A stretch of 64,000 nucleotides of DNA from the IMG/VR virus record IMGVR_UViG_3300021963_000063, positions 1-64,000 of that record; one strand, given 5' to 3'. This stretch comes from a virus. Below, in pieces: positions 3,049 to 29,140 of this stretch (positions within the stretch are counted from its first letter, which is position 1; each line of letters begins with the position of its first letter). The notes beneath the pieces were generated by a model that did no database searches, was not told the origin of the DNA, and was given only the letters and a program-made list of their open reading frames with translations. The position numbers and the translations under genes are program-made.

Positions 3049-3239
3049 TGGGAATAGGAAAAACATATAGGTTTGCCGAGCAAGTATCAAGAAATCAAGA
3101 TCCTTGTATTGTAGTGGTAAATAACAAGCACGATAAAGAGATGCTTAAAACAATGTTTAAGACCTTAAAGTATAATAAGGCAAAGATTGTTACTAGAGAT
3201 AGAGTATTTGATATTAAAGACTATGAGGATAATAAGTAA
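3048..3239 (+). CDS. mini P-loop-like protein, 63 aa
   Basis: The protein begins MGIGKTYR, a Walker-A-like GxGKT placed at the extreme N-terminus, then an amphipathic helix and the strand CIVVVNN, as in the first beta-alpha-beta unit of a P-loop NTPase; no Walker B follows. It may be a truncated NTPase or a convergent motif. Coupled to both neighbours by TAATG. Confidence 0.55.
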   Translation: MGIGKTYRFAEQVSRNQDPCIVVVNNKHDKEMLKTMFKTLKYNKAKIVTRDRVFDIKDYEDNK

Positions 3240-3580
3240 TGGAAAAAGTTGACCGTCCTTGGGGACACTACACCGTCCTTGGCACTAAGAATGATTTACA
3301 AACTAAACAGATTGTAGTCAATCCTAACTCAAGGCTATCCCTGCAGAAGCATGAACATAGACGAGAGATTTGGTTTGTCATTGAGGGAAACCCGTCAATT
3401 GAGGTTGGCGAGGATAGCTTTGTTGGCAGTCCAGGAACCGTTGTAGTTGTAGAAAAGAATGAGGTTCATAGGATCTCTGCCACAGATAATCAGGTTGTTA
3501 TTGTTGAGGTACAAATTGGGGATTATCTTGGTGAAGACGATATTATTCGCCTAGAAGATGATTATGGTAGGATTGGGTAA
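3239..3580 (+). CDS. phosphomannose isomerase type II-like cupin, 113 aa
   Basis: The protein matches the C-terminal isomerase domain of ManC/AlgA-type enzymes: RPWGHYTVL at the N-terminus, SLQKHEHRREIWFV with the metal-binding His pair, the Glu of IEVG, EVHRI, and the family hallmark GDYLGEDDIIRLEDDYGR at the C-terminus. The family interconverts fructose-6-P and mannose-6-P in GDP-mannose supply. The nucleotidyltransferase half is absent, so isomerase only. It could feed the glycosyltransferases and epimerase of the minus strand. Confidence 0.85.
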   Translation: MEKVDRPWGHYTVLGTKNDLQTKQIVVNPNSRLSLQKHEHRREIWFVIEGNPSIEVGEDSFVGSPGTVVVVEKNEVHRISATDNQVVIVEVQIGDYLGEDDIIRLEDDYGRIG

Positions 3581-4098
3581 TGACTTGTATTGTGGCTATT
3601 GCAGATGGTGATAGCGTTGTAATGTGTGCTGATAGAGGCATATCAGATGATGACATTATTACATCCATGAGTGTTCCTAAGATTAGTCAAAATGGTCAGT
3701 ATCTAATTGGATACTCTGACTCACCTGGCACTGGTCAACTGGTTCAATACATGACACTACCTACCCCACCAAATAAAAACCTTGATAAGTTTATGCGTAC
3801 AACATTTGCTACTGCTCTTCGTAAGCAACTTACTGAATCTGGCGTAGACCTAAAAGATAATGCTCATGCCTCACTTCTAGTAGGTGTAAATGGATTACTC
3901 TTTGCTATGGATACCAATGACTGGCAGGTAATCAGATGTGATTATATGTCTATAGGCTCTGGATCCTCTATAGCACTAGGTTCTCTTTACACTACCTCTA
4001 CATGGAAGTCTGCTGAGAAAAGGGCTATAACAGCCGTCAGTGCTGCTATAGAGCTATCTCCGTCCTGTAAGGGTCCTATAGATACCCTTGTTATATAA
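3580..4098 (+). CDS. proteasome beta/HslV-like Ntn hydrolase, 172 aa
   Basis: The N-terminus MTCIVAI followed by VVMCADRG matches proteasome beta and HslV subunits. After removal of Met1 the numbering falls in register with the family: Thr1 nucleophile, Asp17 (in CADRG) and Lys33 (in VPKIS). A later IGSGSSIALGSL matches the family GSG segment. Length is close to HslV. No HslU or Mpa unfoldase is visible nearby, so it may use a host ATPase, act alone, or compete with the host proteasome. Coupled to the cupin gene by TAATG. Known family chemistry is N-terminal-Thr proteolysis; substrate unknown. Confidence 0.8.
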   Translation: MTCIVAIADGDSVVMCADRGISDDDIITSMSVPKISQNGQYLIGYSDSPGTGQLVQYMTLPTPPNKNLDKFMRTTFATALRKQLTESGVDLKDNAHASLLVGVNGLLFAMDTNDWQVIRCDYMSIGSGSSIALGSLYTTSTWKSAEKRAITAVSAAIELSPSCKGPIDTLVI

Positions 4099-4119: not shown

Positions 4120-4338
4120 ATGAAAGATGCCATTAGCTTGGTTCAAGGATCAAAAGATAAAGAACTGTTTATTGTTTTTCTAAATAAGTTTATTGATTCT
4201 GAGATACAACATATTCAGAAAACAATGGAAGACGAATCTCCAAATCTTAGAAGTGCTGCTTTATGCTATGAGGCAATGGCAACTGCAACTTTAATGAAAA
4301 ATTATATTAATGGAGAAACTGAATATTTTGAAGAATAA
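4120..4338 (+). CDS. hypothetical helical protein, 72 aa
   Basis: ATG 4120 follows AAAGG by a good spacing. The sequence is alpha-helical with heptad-like hydrophobics, no Cys, and an acidic end (GETEYFEE). Last gene of the plus-strand cluster, directly before the terminator. No family recognised. Confidence 0.6.
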   Translation: MKDAISLVQGSKDKELFIVFLNKFIDSEIQHIQKTMEDESPNLRSAALCYEAMATATLMKNYINGETEYFEE

Positions 4339-4341
4339 GAA

Positions 4342-4374
4342 AGACCAGAGTGGTCGTGAGAATCACCCTGGTCT
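4342..4374. terminator. bidirectional terminator between convergent gene blocks
   Basis: AGACCAGAGTG (4342-4352) pairs with CACCCTGGTCT (4364-4374) with one mismatch and an 11-nt loop. It is flanked by TTAGTTTTATT on the right and, read leftward, CTTTCTTATT, so it can serve both strands. It lies exactly where plus-strand and minus-strand genes meet. Confidence 0.8.
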
Positions 4375-4393
4375 AACTTAGTTTTATTATATA

Positions 4394-4705
4394 CTATTCA
4401 GCCTTTTTGTCAACTGAGCTAAATGCTGAGTTGATTTCACTTGCACTTAGCTTTCCATCGTCTAGGAAGGCTCTTGCAAGCTTTTCTACTACTGTTGCGA
4501 CACCAAGTGTACCTGCCATGATTACAGCAGTTAGTGTATCAATTCCAACAAGGGAACCTGCACCAATAATTGAAAGACCAGATGCTGCAAAAACTGCAAC
4601 TATTCTGAAAAAGATATTCCAAACATTTGTTGCTGCTTTGGATCCGATTACCTCTTCTCCAGTTTCAGCATCTTTAACTGTTATATCTACTTTACTCTTT
4701 GTCAT
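4394..4705 (-). CDS. holin-like membrane protein, 103 aa
   Basis: A cytoplasmic N-terminus (about 1-28), two hydrophobic segments (about 29-50 and 55-75) separated by a Gly/Asp turn, and an acidic tail FLDDGKLSASEINSAF. Small two-span proteins with a DGKLS-type tail occur as actinophage holins, which form inner-membrane lesions to release endolysin. It is the last gene of a three-gene unit with another small membrane protein. Holin function is inferred from topology and context. Confidence 0.65.
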   Translation of the reverse strand: MTKSKVDITVKDAETGEEVIGSKAATNVWNIFFRIVAVFAASGLSIIGAGSLVGIDTLTAVIMAGTLGVATVVEKLARAFLDDGKLSASEINSAFSSVDKKAE

Positions 4706-4889
4706 TTTCTTTTTCCTCCTGTTCCCTAAATTTCATTGAAAGCAACCATACGGCTGTACAAATTAAAACTGCCCACCCTACTACTGTTTTAGCAGACCCA
4801 TCAAGGACTGCCCATGCTACGAACATACCAAGAAGGGTGAATGTTTGGTTTAGTGTTTCACGAAACTTATCTTTTAACCATTTCTTCAT
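4692..4889 (-). CDS. second small membrane protein, possible holin partner, 65 aa
   Basis: A basic N-terminus (MKKWLKDKFRE), two hydrophobic stretches (about 15-30 and 35-51) and a Lys/Glu tail. It overlaps the holin-like gene by 14 bp and starts by TAATG overlap with the secreted repeat protein. Paired two-span proteins at a lysis locus can be holin/antiholin pairs; which is which cannot be told from sequence. Confidence 0.55.
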   Translation of the reverse strand: MKKWLKDKFRETLNQTFTLLGMFVAWAVLDGSAKTVVGWAVLICTAVWLLSMKFREQEEKENDKE

Positions 4890-6802
4890 TATCTTATCCT
4901 CCCTGTAATTAAGTTAGTTGATGCTATTAATTGTCCAACAATTACAGAAGCAACAACTACTGCTTGTGTTTCTTTGCGTTGTTCTGGTGTCATATCTGCA
5001 CCAATACTAGCAAAAGCTTTTAATGCCTTACCTGGATCTGTTAATGCTGTTAGAAGTAATTCACTTGGATTTTCAAATATTTGAAGTGCATCTGCAACTT
5101 CTGCAGTAAGAATTACTCCATTTTCTAACATAACTGGCTGATCTGGTGGCAAATTTTCGTAGTCAAGACCAGACTCTTGAAATGATTCAAAGGATATGGC
5201 ATCCGTAGGACCATACTCTGTAAGCAATTCATTAAGGGCAATCGACTCTTCTGCAGTCAAGCCATCTATGATATTATTGTTAGATGGATCATCAGTGGAT
5301 GAAGGACTTGGACTTGGAACTGGACTCTCAGTTGGAACTGGAGCTTCTGGTGATGGAGATGAAGTCGGTTGCTCAGGAGTTGGGCTTGGAGTTACAACAG
5401 GTATTACAGGGGGCAACGGAGGTCTTGAAGGGCTTAAAGAAGGAGTTGGAGTAGGTGAAGGTTCTAAAGGCGGTTCAGAGGTTTCTGTTGGCTGTGGGCT
5501 TGGCTCTGATGGCTGGGGTGACGGTTCTAATGTTGGCGTTTGTGATTCTGTTGGCTGTGGTTCAGGGCTGGCAGTAGGGCTTGGCTCTACTGGTATGTTT
5601 TCGTAAGAAATAAGAATGATAAGTACCTTTGGTGTTCCTGGTGCTGGATCATTTTCAAAAGTGGTATTTGATACCTCAATTGTTGCAGATGTTTGTCCAA
5701 CTAATAATGCAGAAAGAATAGAAGATACGTCTTGCCCACGAGATCCATCACTTGGATCCCCATAATAACCAAAAACAGATGATACCTTTTTATTATCTGG
5801 AGCTATTAAGTTTAATATAGAACCCTCTTGAATTACATCAGCACCTTCTGGTGTAGTTGGTGGCATTGGTGGACATTGCTCATTCCAATTTACTTCTGAT
5901 CCATTCCAGCACTCAACTAATGGTGGAACCTGTGGACAAGTTTGATTCCAAGAAATTACTGATCCGTCCCAGCAAACAATATCTGGAGGAGTTGGGGGGC
6001 AAGTTTGGTTATAAGGAATTACTGAGTTATCCCAACAAGTTATTGGGGGTGGTTGAGGTGGGCAGGTTTGACTCCAAGTTACCCAGGATCCGTCCCAGCA
6101 CTGTGTGTCAGGTGGTATTGGTGGACACGTTCCATTCCAAGGAACTGTTGATCCATCCCAACATTGACCAGGTGGTGGTTCTGCAGGACAGGTTGATGTT
6201 AAAGGTATAATAGAGTTATCCCAACAAGTTTGCATTTCTACTGGACGACCACCATTGATTGTAAAAGCTTCTGATATAGTAACTACTTCTTGTCCAGGTG
6301 CGAACCTAATACCTCTTCTAAGATCTGATGGGAGCCAACCTGTGGTCTCAATAATTCCAGACCAAGAGGGTAACTTTGAGGTATCAACAGTTAATTTAAT
6401 TGTTGTAAGATTTCCAGTACTTTGAGGAAATGGTCTTACTTTCCATTCAACACAAAATCCTGTGCTTGTAGAGCCATAGCTTAAACTAGCACCTTGACCA
6501 AATGTTACCCAGTCATAGCCAGCTAGGGATATGGATGGAGTATTGGGATATGAGCTAAAATTAGCATCAGGAGTACCAAAAGTAAGGGTTCCATTAGTAG
6601 TTACATATGTTGTATTATATGTGACATCACCAAGGGTTAGGGGATTTGTCAGGTTCATTTGATGAGCAGTGTCATCTTCACCAGACCAAGAGTATGTGTT
6701 ACATGGCTGTTCTTGTATTACCGCATTTGCAGGTAATACTAATAGCGTTGTAAGCGATGCTATAAATGGCATCAATAATATATATGAAAAAATCTTTTTC
6801 AA
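4889..6802 (-). CDS. large secreted protein with six 21-aa CWDGS repeats and a Pro/Ser/Thr stalk, 637 aa
   Basis: TTG start at 6802 with GGGGAG upstream. A Sec signal peptide (about 1-28, cut after PANA) leads to a beta-rich domain of about 190 residues, then six tandem 21-residue repeats of consensus CWDGSxVxWNxTCPPxPP, a long Pro/Ser/Thr/Glu stretch (about 400-500) typical of wall-spanning linkers in Gram-positive surface proteins, and an Ala-rich C-terminal region ending in a hydrophobic segment. Each repeat has two Cys, probably one disulfide. First gene of the holin-containing unit; may act in lysis, superinfection control or as an adhesin. No family assigned. Confidence 0.65.
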   Translation of the reverse strand: MKKIFSYILLMPFIASLTTLLVLPANAVIQEQPCNTYSWSGEDDTAHQMNLTNPLTLGDVTYNTTYVTTNGTLTFGTPDANFSSYPNTPSISLAGYDWVTFGQGASLSYGSTSTGFCVEWKVRPFPQSTGNLTTIKLTVDTSKLPSWSGIIETTGWLPSDLRRGIRFAPGQEVVTISEAFTINGGRPVEMQTCWDNSIIPLTSTCPAEPPPGQCWDGSTVPWNGTCPPIPPDTQCWDGSWVTWSQTCPPQPPPITCWDNSVIPYNQTCPPTPPDIVCWDGSVISWNQTCPQVPPLVECWNGSEVNWNEQCPPMPPTTPEGADVIQEGSILNLIAPDNKKVSSVFGYYGDPSDGSRGQDVSSILSALLVGQTSATIEVSNTTFENDPAPGTPKVLIILISYENIPVEPSPTASPEPQPTESQTPTLEPSPQPSEPSPQPTETSEPPLEPSPTPTPSLSPSRPPLPPVIPVVTPSPTPEQPTSSPSPEAPVPTESPVPSPSPSSTDDPSNNNIIDGLTAEESIALNELLTEYGPTDAISFESFQESGLDYENLPPDQPVMLENGVILTAEVADALQIFENPSELLLTALTDPGKALKAFASIGADMTPEQRKETQAVVVASVIVGQLIASTNLITGRIR

Positions 6803-6868: not shown

Positions 6869-7900
6869 CTATCTTAGAGCGTGAGGCTTACTTTCATTTA
6901 CCGAGAGGCTAGAAACCTCAATATACATTGCATTATCATATAAATCTCTTAAATTATGTACTCCAGAATACGAGCAACCACTTCCTAAGCCACCACGAAT
7001 ATTATCTAATGTATTAGATACCGATCCTTTATAGGGTACTCTTGTTGCCACACCTTCTGCTACTGCAATATCTTTACCTTCATTAGCTTCCTTAGAAGCC
7101 ATACCTCTAAATGATTTATATTTACCAGTTTCATCAAACATTAGTGATCCTGGAGACTCATCTGTACCTGCCAACATAGACCCTAGCATAACGGCATCAG
7201 CACCTGCAGAGAAGGCTTTAACCATGTCCCCTGATGTTTTGATACCCCCATCAGCAATAATGGCTACATTTGAATACTTAGATTTGTTTCTTATTTCAAC
7301 AATATCTAGGATTGAGGATAAGGTAGGGATTCCATGACCAGATATCAGTCTAGTGGTACAAACAGAACCACCACCAATTCCAACACGAATAGAATTTGCA
7401 CCTGCCTTAGCAAGAGCCTTAAATCCTTCATATGTAGATACATTACCAGCCATAATATGAATGTCTTTAAAAAGCTTTTTTAGGTTTTTTACTGCATCAA
7501 TAGCGTATTGGCTATGACCATTTGCAGTATCAATAAGAATTACTGATGCTCCTGCATCCACTAGTCTTTCTGCATCATGTAAGTATGAACCTTTAGCACC
7601 TACCGCAGCACCAACAATAACCTGATGATAACTAGAAGCAAGCTTAACCTGCTTTATCTGTTCTTCTATTGGCATAAACCTATGAATAATTCCAAGACCG
7701 CCATGCTTTGCTATTGCAACTACCATATCTATTTCACAAACAGTATCCATAGGTGAGGCAATTACTGGAAAACCTAAAACAAGATCTGCCCCAAGGTTCA
7801 TAGAAAGCTTTACATCTTTTCTGCTTTCAATATCAGAGTGCTGTGGCACCATTAAGATATCATCAAAACATAGTTGCTTTTCTTCACTATACTTATACAT
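6869..7900 (-). CDS. IMP dehydrogenase/GMP reductase family enzyme without CBS domains, 343 aa
   Basis: TIM-barrel protein with the family loop [11 protein letters not shown], giving catalytic Cys181, the phosphate-binding IIADGGIK (about 214-221) and GSMLAG, and the C-terminal [14 protein letters not shown] domains are absent and the mobile flap lacks the Arg-Tyr of IMP dehydrogenase, while [12 protein letters not shown] resembles GMP reductase, whose usual length (about 347) also fits. Reaction: NADPH-dependent GMP to IMP if a reductase, or IMP to XMP if a dehydrogenase. It overlaps the epimerase gene by 8 bp, so it may tune guanine nucleotide supply for GDP-sugars or DNA synthesis. Confidence 0.85.
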
Positions 7901-10877: not shown

Positions 10878-11130
10878 ATGTACCTCTAGGAGGATCTCCT
10901 TTTGCTCCGTCAAAATTTGCCTTTACTCCAAACGACTCAATGGTTGTTCTTAATAACTGCAGATACTCCATTATACTAACTTTTTGCATTTCATTCATAG
11001 CCATAATTTGATTTTCATAGATACGAATACCAATATAATTATCATGCTCAACAAAGTCAATAATAAGACCCTTATATGGTGGCTTTAGTCTATGTACAGT
11101 CATTGACATTTCTTTAGTAAACTTTGGCAT
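10867..11130 (-). CDS. hypothetical protein, 87 aa
   Basis: The start shares a base with the stop of the WhiB gene, indicating coupling. The sequence has a beta-rich N-terminal half (GLIIDFVEHDNYIGIRIYE) and a helical centre. No known motif. Expressed with whiB and the sugar genes from the promoter near 11635. Confidence 0.6.
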   Translation of the reverse strand: MPKFTKEMSMTVHRLKPPYKGLIIDFVEHDNYIGIRIYENQIMAMNEMQKVSIMEYLQLLRTTIESFGVKANFDGAKGDPPRGTYVS

Positions 11131-11402
11131 TACACAGCTCCAAGTATCTCTGTCCAGATGTCTTCTGTTTTATGAAAGTTTTTAGAGGGACTAATCTCTC
11201 CATCAACTAAGTAAACTCCACCCCAAACTCCCCACTCTTCATTAGTGGTACCATGGTTGAAGCAGTCAGATATTACTGGGCAAGTTAAGCAAATGTTGTC
11301 AACTACTTTAGCTAAGTCAGGATCTTCTTCATACTTATCAAAGAATAATTCACGATCCATTGACCTACATTTAGCCTTAACAATCCATTCATGATCTAAC
11401 AT
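11130..11402 (-). CDS. WhiB-like Fe-S regulator, 90 aa
   Basis: Four Cys in WhiB order: KCRSMD, then ICLTCPVISDC (CxxCx5C), and the hallmark turn GVWGG, which WhiB proteins use with a basic tail to contact sigma factor region 4 and DNA. The family binds a 4Fe-4S cluster and is confined to actinobacteria and their phages. Start placed at MLDHEW with GGAGG upstream; an in-frame ATG at 11432 would add ten residues. The basic AT-hook-like tail is weak here. Could reprogram host transcription or affect septation, as described for mycobacteriophage WhiB proteins. Confidence 0.88.
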   Translation of the reverse strand: MLDHEWIVKAKCRSMDRELFFDKYEEDPDLAKVVDNICLTCPVISDCFNHGTTNEEWGVWGGVYLVDGEISPSKNFHKTEDIWTEILGAV

Positions 11403-11601
11403 ACTTTGTGGGAACCTCCCAGCCATTATCATTTAGGGTAAATGACTTTACATAATGCCACTTGCCATTAATTAGTCTTCCATCTTTATTGAACTCTGCT
11501 CCAGCACTTTCTTTTGATTCTAGGATATTCCATCCGTCCCAAGAGAGGGACTTATTTGAATCAACAATCTGATGAGCATAGTCATAACTTGTAACTAACA
11601 T
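11389..11601 (-). CDS. hypothetical protein, 70 aa
   Basis: ATG 11601 with AGGAAA upstream, about 34 bp downstream of a consensus-type promoter. The sequence has several Trp/Gly positions (WDGWNIL, GKWHYV, GWEVPTKYVRS) that suggest a small beta-rich fold. It overlaps the start of the WhiB gene. First gene of the whiB/sugar transcript. No family recognised. Confidence 0.6.
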   Translation of the reverse strand: MLVTSYDYAHQIVDSNKSLSWDGWNILESKESAGAEFNKDGRLINGKWHYVKSFTLNDNGWEVPTKYVRS

Positions 11602-28875: not shown

Positions 28876-28887
28876 TTTAATCCTTTG

Positions 28888-29140
28888 TGGAGATGTGCGG
28901 ATTTGCACCGCAGTCCTATATGTTTTCAATTATACACTTACACAGCAATATTGTCTAGCCTTTTCTTACATTTTCTTTCATACACGACTTTCTGTTCCTA
29001 TCTAGTCGTCAGACGGCTTTAGTTTATGCAGCTAAAGCGAGGGCAGTTTGTGTTGTGCCGTTTATATTTATTTAGTTTTACAAGTAACTCTCTTGTGCTG
29101 GTGTATAAGTTTCCACATACAGTCGAAACTTTTCATCCCC
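28888..29140 (-). ncRNA. ssrA: transfer-messenger RNA (tmRNA), 253 nt
   Basis: 5' end GGGGATGAAAAGTTTCGAC carries the tmRNA hallmark GTTTCGAC. The 3' end has the T-arm CTGCGGTGCAAATCCGCAC and CATCTCC, which closes the acceptor with GGGGATG (one G.U). The tag frame ends GCT TTA GCT GCA TAA (ALAA). At 253 nt it is short for a bacterial tmRNA (usually about 350-400), implying lost or shortened pseudoknots. It rescues stalled ribosomes and tags products for proteolysis. Only the discriminator and CA follow, so CCA would be added after transcription. Confidence 0.92.
29024..29059 (-). other. tmRNA tag reading frame
   Basis: GGC at 29059 opens GTTQTALALAA then TAA (29026-29024). If the resume codon is the preceding AAC the tag gains an N. 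The C-terminal ALAA matches tags read by ClpXP in bacteria. The exact resume codon is not decidable by eye. Confidence 0.75.

Follow-up and report, generated by a model that had tools for sequence, protein, structure and literature searches.

A group I proteasome-like threonine protease gene in a clade of WhiB-bearing, probably actinobacterial, phages

The window, that is, the whole stretch of 64,000 nucleotides analysed here from a virus record of 96,730 b (G000), carries a gene for a group I proteasome-like threonine protease. Its product is a phage member of the BPH/AAH/PPH neighbourhood of this family and belongs to a kind, the phage group I proteasome homologs, that was already catalogued in 2021; new here is its breadth in WhiB-bearing phages, a large clade of which carries the protease gene. 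Profile matches, many relatives and a low ratio of nonsynonymous to synonymous substitution (dN/dS) confirm that the observation is real and more than chance. We consider it most likely (probability about 0.6) that the protein is a BPH-like ring protease working without a dedicated unfoldase, a reading in which we infer the ring, the activity and the substrate. The initial annotation had described it as "proteasome/HslV-like". The first half of that label holds: the protein is a threonine Ntn hydrolase of the proteasome superfamily whose active site is intact. The second does not, since the protein is not specifically HslV-like and BPH is nearest. The features to which we refer are:

3239..3580, + strand: upstream cupin gene, mannose-6-phosphate isomerase C-terminal family (PF01050, 5e-29)
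3580..4098, + strand: group I proteasome-like threonine protease gene, 172 aa (ORF, profile and predicted fold)
3583..3585, + strand: Thr1 codon, the nucleophile, N-terminal after Met removal (invariant, 87/87, a count partly biased by a second scan seeded on MTCIV)
3631..3633, + strand: Asp17 codon (Asp in 76, Glu in 11, n = 87)
3679..3681, + strand: Lys33 codon (87/87)
3709..3711, + strand: Gly43 codon, matching by alignment the oxyanion-hole Gly47 of the proteasome (Gly in 84, Ala in 3, n = 87)
3832..3873, + strand: region equivalent to the pore loop of HslV and BPH, residues 85-98, net acidic
3955..3963, + strand: GSG segment (GSG in 85, GAG in 2, n = 87)
4120..4338, + strand: downstream gene of 72 aa, function not assigned (absent in L001 and L031)
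4342..4374, no strand: terminator-like inverted repeat AGACCAG...CTGGTCT between converging genes (kept in L001, in L030 with one change, and in L031)
11130..11432, - strand: WhiB-like regulator (PF02467, 8e-13; PHROG 472, 8e-15)

The ORF at 3580-4098 (+) gives a product that starts MTCIVAIADGDSVVMCADRGIS, with VPKISQ later. As first described, Thr1, Asp17 and Lys33 fall in register with the proteasome once Met is removed, and the later GSG segment is present as well (ORF residues 126-128); its Ser corresponds to BPH Ser139, which hydrogen-bonds Thr1 (PMC5777263). Upstream of the ATG, the frame stays open for just three codons before a stop is reached (open frame of 175 aa). The protein therefore has no propeptide, and the Thr would become N-terminal through ordinary Met removal.

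The PHROG 1040 profile ('peptidase HslV family') matches the protein over its full length (residues 1-171, 6.3e-23), and the Pfam Proteasome family PF00227 scores 24.5 bits against a gathering cut-off of 22.4. The single protein used as query found 19 loci in IMG/VR, and with a profile at least 545 IMG/VR stretches were confirmed. The closest relatives, 70-95% identical, are uncultivated viruses; two restricted scans of GTDB genome contigs, one with the protein and one with an alignment of eight sequences, found no relative. The counts given above refer to the window protein together with 86 IMG/VR loci. Loss of the Thr or the Lys in related phages had been named at the outset as an observation that would speak against the assignment, and neither residue is lost in this set; both are also invariant among 17 sequences that include four records from an annotated phage collection (three isolates and one uncultured). 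At position 17, Glu replaces Asp in L002, L003, L004, L005, L006, L032, L033, L040, L041, L085 and L095. These sequences span more than one sub-group, which suggests that Asp and Glu have been exchanged repeatedly. Glu17 is likewise found in the proteasome beta subunit of Thermoplasma, so that Glu at this position is compatible with activity. Between the window gene and its relatives of 70-95% identity we obtained dN/dS values of 0.08-0.20 (Nei-Gojobori), which are approximate, synonymous sites being near saturation in all relatives but L001. Judging from these comparisons of sequence, the protease gene is under purifying selection.

AlphaFold2, run on 31 window and IMG/VR sequences, predicted for the window protein a monomer with pLDDT 93.6 and pTM 0.90, its strands and helices in proteasome order. 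The model is that of an Ntn hydrolase, in which helix pairs flank the beta sheets, and not one of the other folds that the initial annotation had regarded as counter-evidence. Among solved structures, Foldseek placed BPH first (TM 0.80-0.83, E 7.7e-12), followed by HslV (about 0.74) and then the 20S beta subunit; viral models matched the predicted fold with TM up to 0.91, and one model-level match was in Gordonia phage Daredevil. Profile searches also ranked BPH first (3.9e-10), before archaeal beta (1.2e-7) and HslV (1.2e-3). The model is compact, with helices at 49-57 and 68-86 and no insertions that would block a ring. After the second helix, the pore-loop region carries a net charge of -1 to -5 in 31/31 sequences; set against the long acidic loop of BPH, it is acidic in every sequence, yet short in the group of the window protein itself. 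The pore of HslV, in contrast, has a basic cluster (Arg86/Arg89/Lys90) that is altered on HslU binding, whereas BPH has an acidic pore loop and is without a known unfoldase (PMC5777263; PMC8665760).

Fuchs, Alva and Lupas (2021) listed HslV, BPH, AAH, CPH, PPH, RPC and DPH as group I homologs, and reported PPH and AAH in tailed phages with no co-occurring AAA+ protein found (PMC8665760). The window protein resembles these two in being phage-borne and compact, with Thr1/Asp17/Lys33, no propeptide and no AAA+ partner found. PPH, however, is described as about 140 aa long with helix H2 missing, whereas the model of our 172-aa protein has two helices there; the protein thus does not match PPH as published. 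AAH was found by the survey in no actinobacteria-specific phage (PMC8665760), whereas the window clade carries WhiB. With BPH, a tetradecameric double ring of solved structure (PDB 5ovs, 5ovt, 5ovu; PMC5777263), the protein shares the best profile and fold match, a net acidic pore-loop region and the lack of an unfoldase partner found. It differs in that identity is 18-21%, BPH is bacterial and chromosomal, and the window protein is known as a monomer model. HslV (ClpQ) shares the fold and the active-site register, but has a basic pore and HslU as partner; HslV proper was rejected on the score of NF003964 (NCBIfam; 12.1 bits versus a cut-off of 137), the acidic pore region and the lack of an HslU match (PF07724) in the record, which is perhaps incomplete. 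PrcB, the bacterial 20S beta subunit, was rejected on TIGR03690 (22.7 bits versus 191.9) and the missing propeptide; a second match to the window protein, as a companion alpha subunit might give, was not found in the record. Connectase is marked by a helical insertion between strands 3 and 4 and by a missing first helix pair; the model lacks such a two-helix insertion and has both helix pairs, so connectase was rejected too. The annotated phage proteins of PHROG 1040 agree in size, N-terminal MTCIV and active site, but are only 25-35% identical; the same annotation is found on Moorella phage MTATph1 and T5-like phages. Two actinobacterial-phage cases had been named previously, Actinomycetia phage DSL-LC01 (annotated HslV) and Daredevil (the model-level match). 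WJZ48484 of DSL-LC01 (PMC10611076) is likewise group I-like and comes from a lake phage in which WhiB is the next gene; it is distant from the window protein and longer, with a basic C-terminal tail.

WhiB marks Actinobacteria and the phages that infect them (PMC10611076), and the regulator occurs in 16/16 related IMG/VR records as well as in DSL-LC01. The initial proposal of an actinobacterial phage is thereby supported: the host is very likely an actinobacterium, as read from WhiB alone, and the virus probably infects freshwater actinobacteria. The protease ATG overlaps the last base of the cupin stop codon (one base), and both genes are probably on the same transcript. Of the relatives compared, only L001, L030 and L031 have the cupin gene upstream as well. 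The downstream gene of 72 aa, being absent in L001 and L031, is not essential to the protease. Gene neighbours vary between relatives generally: the protease gene is part of a block of phage genes that are small and variable, and those of the relatives lie among nucleotide-metabolism or small genes. A perfect sigma-70 match (TTGACA-16-TATAAT) at 4386-4413 (-), seen 0 times in 100 shuffles of 5 kb, was set aside as it is not conserved in L001, L030 and L031. Further along the minus strand are a 637-aa protein (4889-6802) that has a start resembling a signal sequence, a proline-rich stretch and CWDGS...CPP repeat units, without a PHROG match but with related ORFs in 22/32 sequences compared; an IMP dehydrogenase/GMP reductase domain protein (6869-7900; PF00478, 2e-106); and, between phage tRNA genes, a tmRNA predicted by ARAGORN (28887-29140) with the tag GTTQTALALAA. 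Outside the window, the record encodes an HSP20 small heat-shock protein (G000 88045-88479, L029:5546-5980, -; PHROG 432, 5e-36), which is found in 10/16 related protease-bearing records, a fraction that comes with no control frequency from protease-less phages. Terminase is also in the record, as is a head maturation protease (PHROG 9427, 6e-116) next to portal and capsid.

The remark that no unfoldase lies next to the gene stands, and it holds for all 96,730 b of the record, perhaps incomplete, in which neither PF00004 nor PF07724 (HslU) has a match. The canonical Walker A motifs in the record belong to RecA, primase, a DnaB-type helicase and a 2,132-aa ORF. The 16 related IMG/VR records gave PF07724 in 0/16 and PF00004 over cut-off in 0/16, with one weak PF00004 match (16.8 bits) under it. 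PF00004 exceeded the cut-off in 2/4 annotated phages searched, DSL-LC01 and MTATph1. In DSL-LC01 the AAA-domain protein (OQ999401.1 27507-27929; 30.8 bits) lies about 10 kb upstream of the HslV-annotated homolog and is a possible partner of it.

The 2021 table marks no HslV for Actinobacteria (PMC8665760). Relatives of the protease occur in actinophages and also in phages that infect E. coli, Salmonella, Vibrio and Aeromonas. These latter hosts possess HslU, but to our knowledge none of the four has a 20S proteasome. Any function common to the family would thus depend on neither HslU nor the 20S proteasome. T5-like E. coli phages of the BASEL collection carry homologs (e.g., TrudiRoth bas30_0067); in phage T5 no homolog is annotated in the region searched, 66-80 kb. 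The homologs of Vibrio phage 166E36-1 (L024:6001-6984) and Pseudoalteromonas phage J2-1 (L025:6001-7167) have long acidic C-terminal extensions, and both genes come shortly after a PhoH gene. In Vibrio phage 2.058.O, a polypeptide deformylase gene lies three genes upstream of the proteasome homolog (L022:4498-4995); deformylation precedes Met removal, which would free Thr1. A 570-aa protein resembling NodU-type carbamoyltransferases by eye is encoded just downstream of the protease in L009 (3887-5599), and a similar neighbour is found in L034-L038. In papers on phiR2-01 (T5-like), the BASEL collection and phage SIY1lw the homologs are not assigned a function, and we found none for any viral proteasome homolog in the open-licence PubMed Central literature.

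On the reading that we prefer, host methionine aminopeptidase would remove the Met and free Thr1, and the subunits would assemble, by analogy with BPH, into a homo-oligomeric double ring. Such a ring may cut unfolded or disordered host or phage proteins during infection, either unaided by an unfoldase of its own or relying on a housekeeping one that it borrows. Because the gene lies in a block of small variable genes, an accessory role in takeover or protein turnover fits it, rather than a structural one; cutting of host proteins is possible. BPH, on the other hand, was inert on standard peptides and casein, though inhibitors (epoxomicin) bound its Thr1 (PMC5777263). A good active site is thus no guarantee of general protease activity, and narrow specificity or a missing cofactor becomes a serious rival.

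The protein could accordingly be a connectase-like Ntn hydrolase or ligase with one or few partners, acting as a monomer or an unusual oligomer. Connectase itself shows that the proteasome family can be of narrow specificity, and the authors of the 2021 survey anticipate unusual quaternary structures (PMC8665760); the inertness of BPH on general substrates (PMC5777263) and the lack of an unfoldase point the same way. Yet the connectase hallmarks are absent from the model, whose compact fold leaves a ring unobstructed, and we regard this alternative as rather unlikely. Less probable still is that the protein takes the place of, or teams up with, the proteolytic component of a host AAA+ protease and receives substrates from a host unfoldase such as Mpa/ARC, ClpX or ClpC. 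Housekeeping partners have been suggested for such homologs (PMC8665760), and the record encodes no unfoldase that we could find; but neither HslU nor Mpa is common to the hosts across the family, no C-terminal docking feature was recognised, and pull-downs with BPH and genome searches gave no ATPase partner (PMC5777263).

The other proposals fare worse. Processing of virion proteins, suggested in the initial annotation and an activity for which phages commonly encode enzymes, is now disfavoured and very improbable: the phage has its separate head maturation protease beside the head genes, about 70 kb off and on the opposite strand, and the genes of relatives lie in other surroundings, as described above. 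Poisoning or alteration of the host 20S proteasome by mixing in, also suggested there, would suit a WhiB-inferred actinobacterial host and a protein of the same superfamily. We nevertheless give it hardly any credence, since the protein is closer to BPH, scores far below the cut-off for the bacterial beta subunit and lacks a propeptide, its active site has been preserved, for which a poison would have no use, and it has relatives in phages of E. coli, Salmonella and Vibrio, hosts without 20S. That the gene is inactive or decaying cargo with no role in infection, as its changing neighbours might hint, is just as improbable in view of the dN/dS values and the invariant catalytic residues.

A clade of WhiB-bearing, probably actinobacterial, phages thus keeps the gene under purifying selection and with its active site intact, close to the gap left by the 2021 survey, which had no actinobacteria-specific phage with AAH (PMC8665760). 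Homologs in the E. coli phages of BASEL make the function of a phage proteasome homolog testable in E. coli K-12. A bolder version, which we put forward tentatively and think rather unlikely in full, is that the large actinophage clade uses a ring threonine protease with an acidic pore, independent of any unfoldase, to remove particular host regulators, perhaps with help from the phage's own HSP20 chaperone. If true, this would be a viral protein-degradation system distinct from both HslUV and the 20S proteasome.
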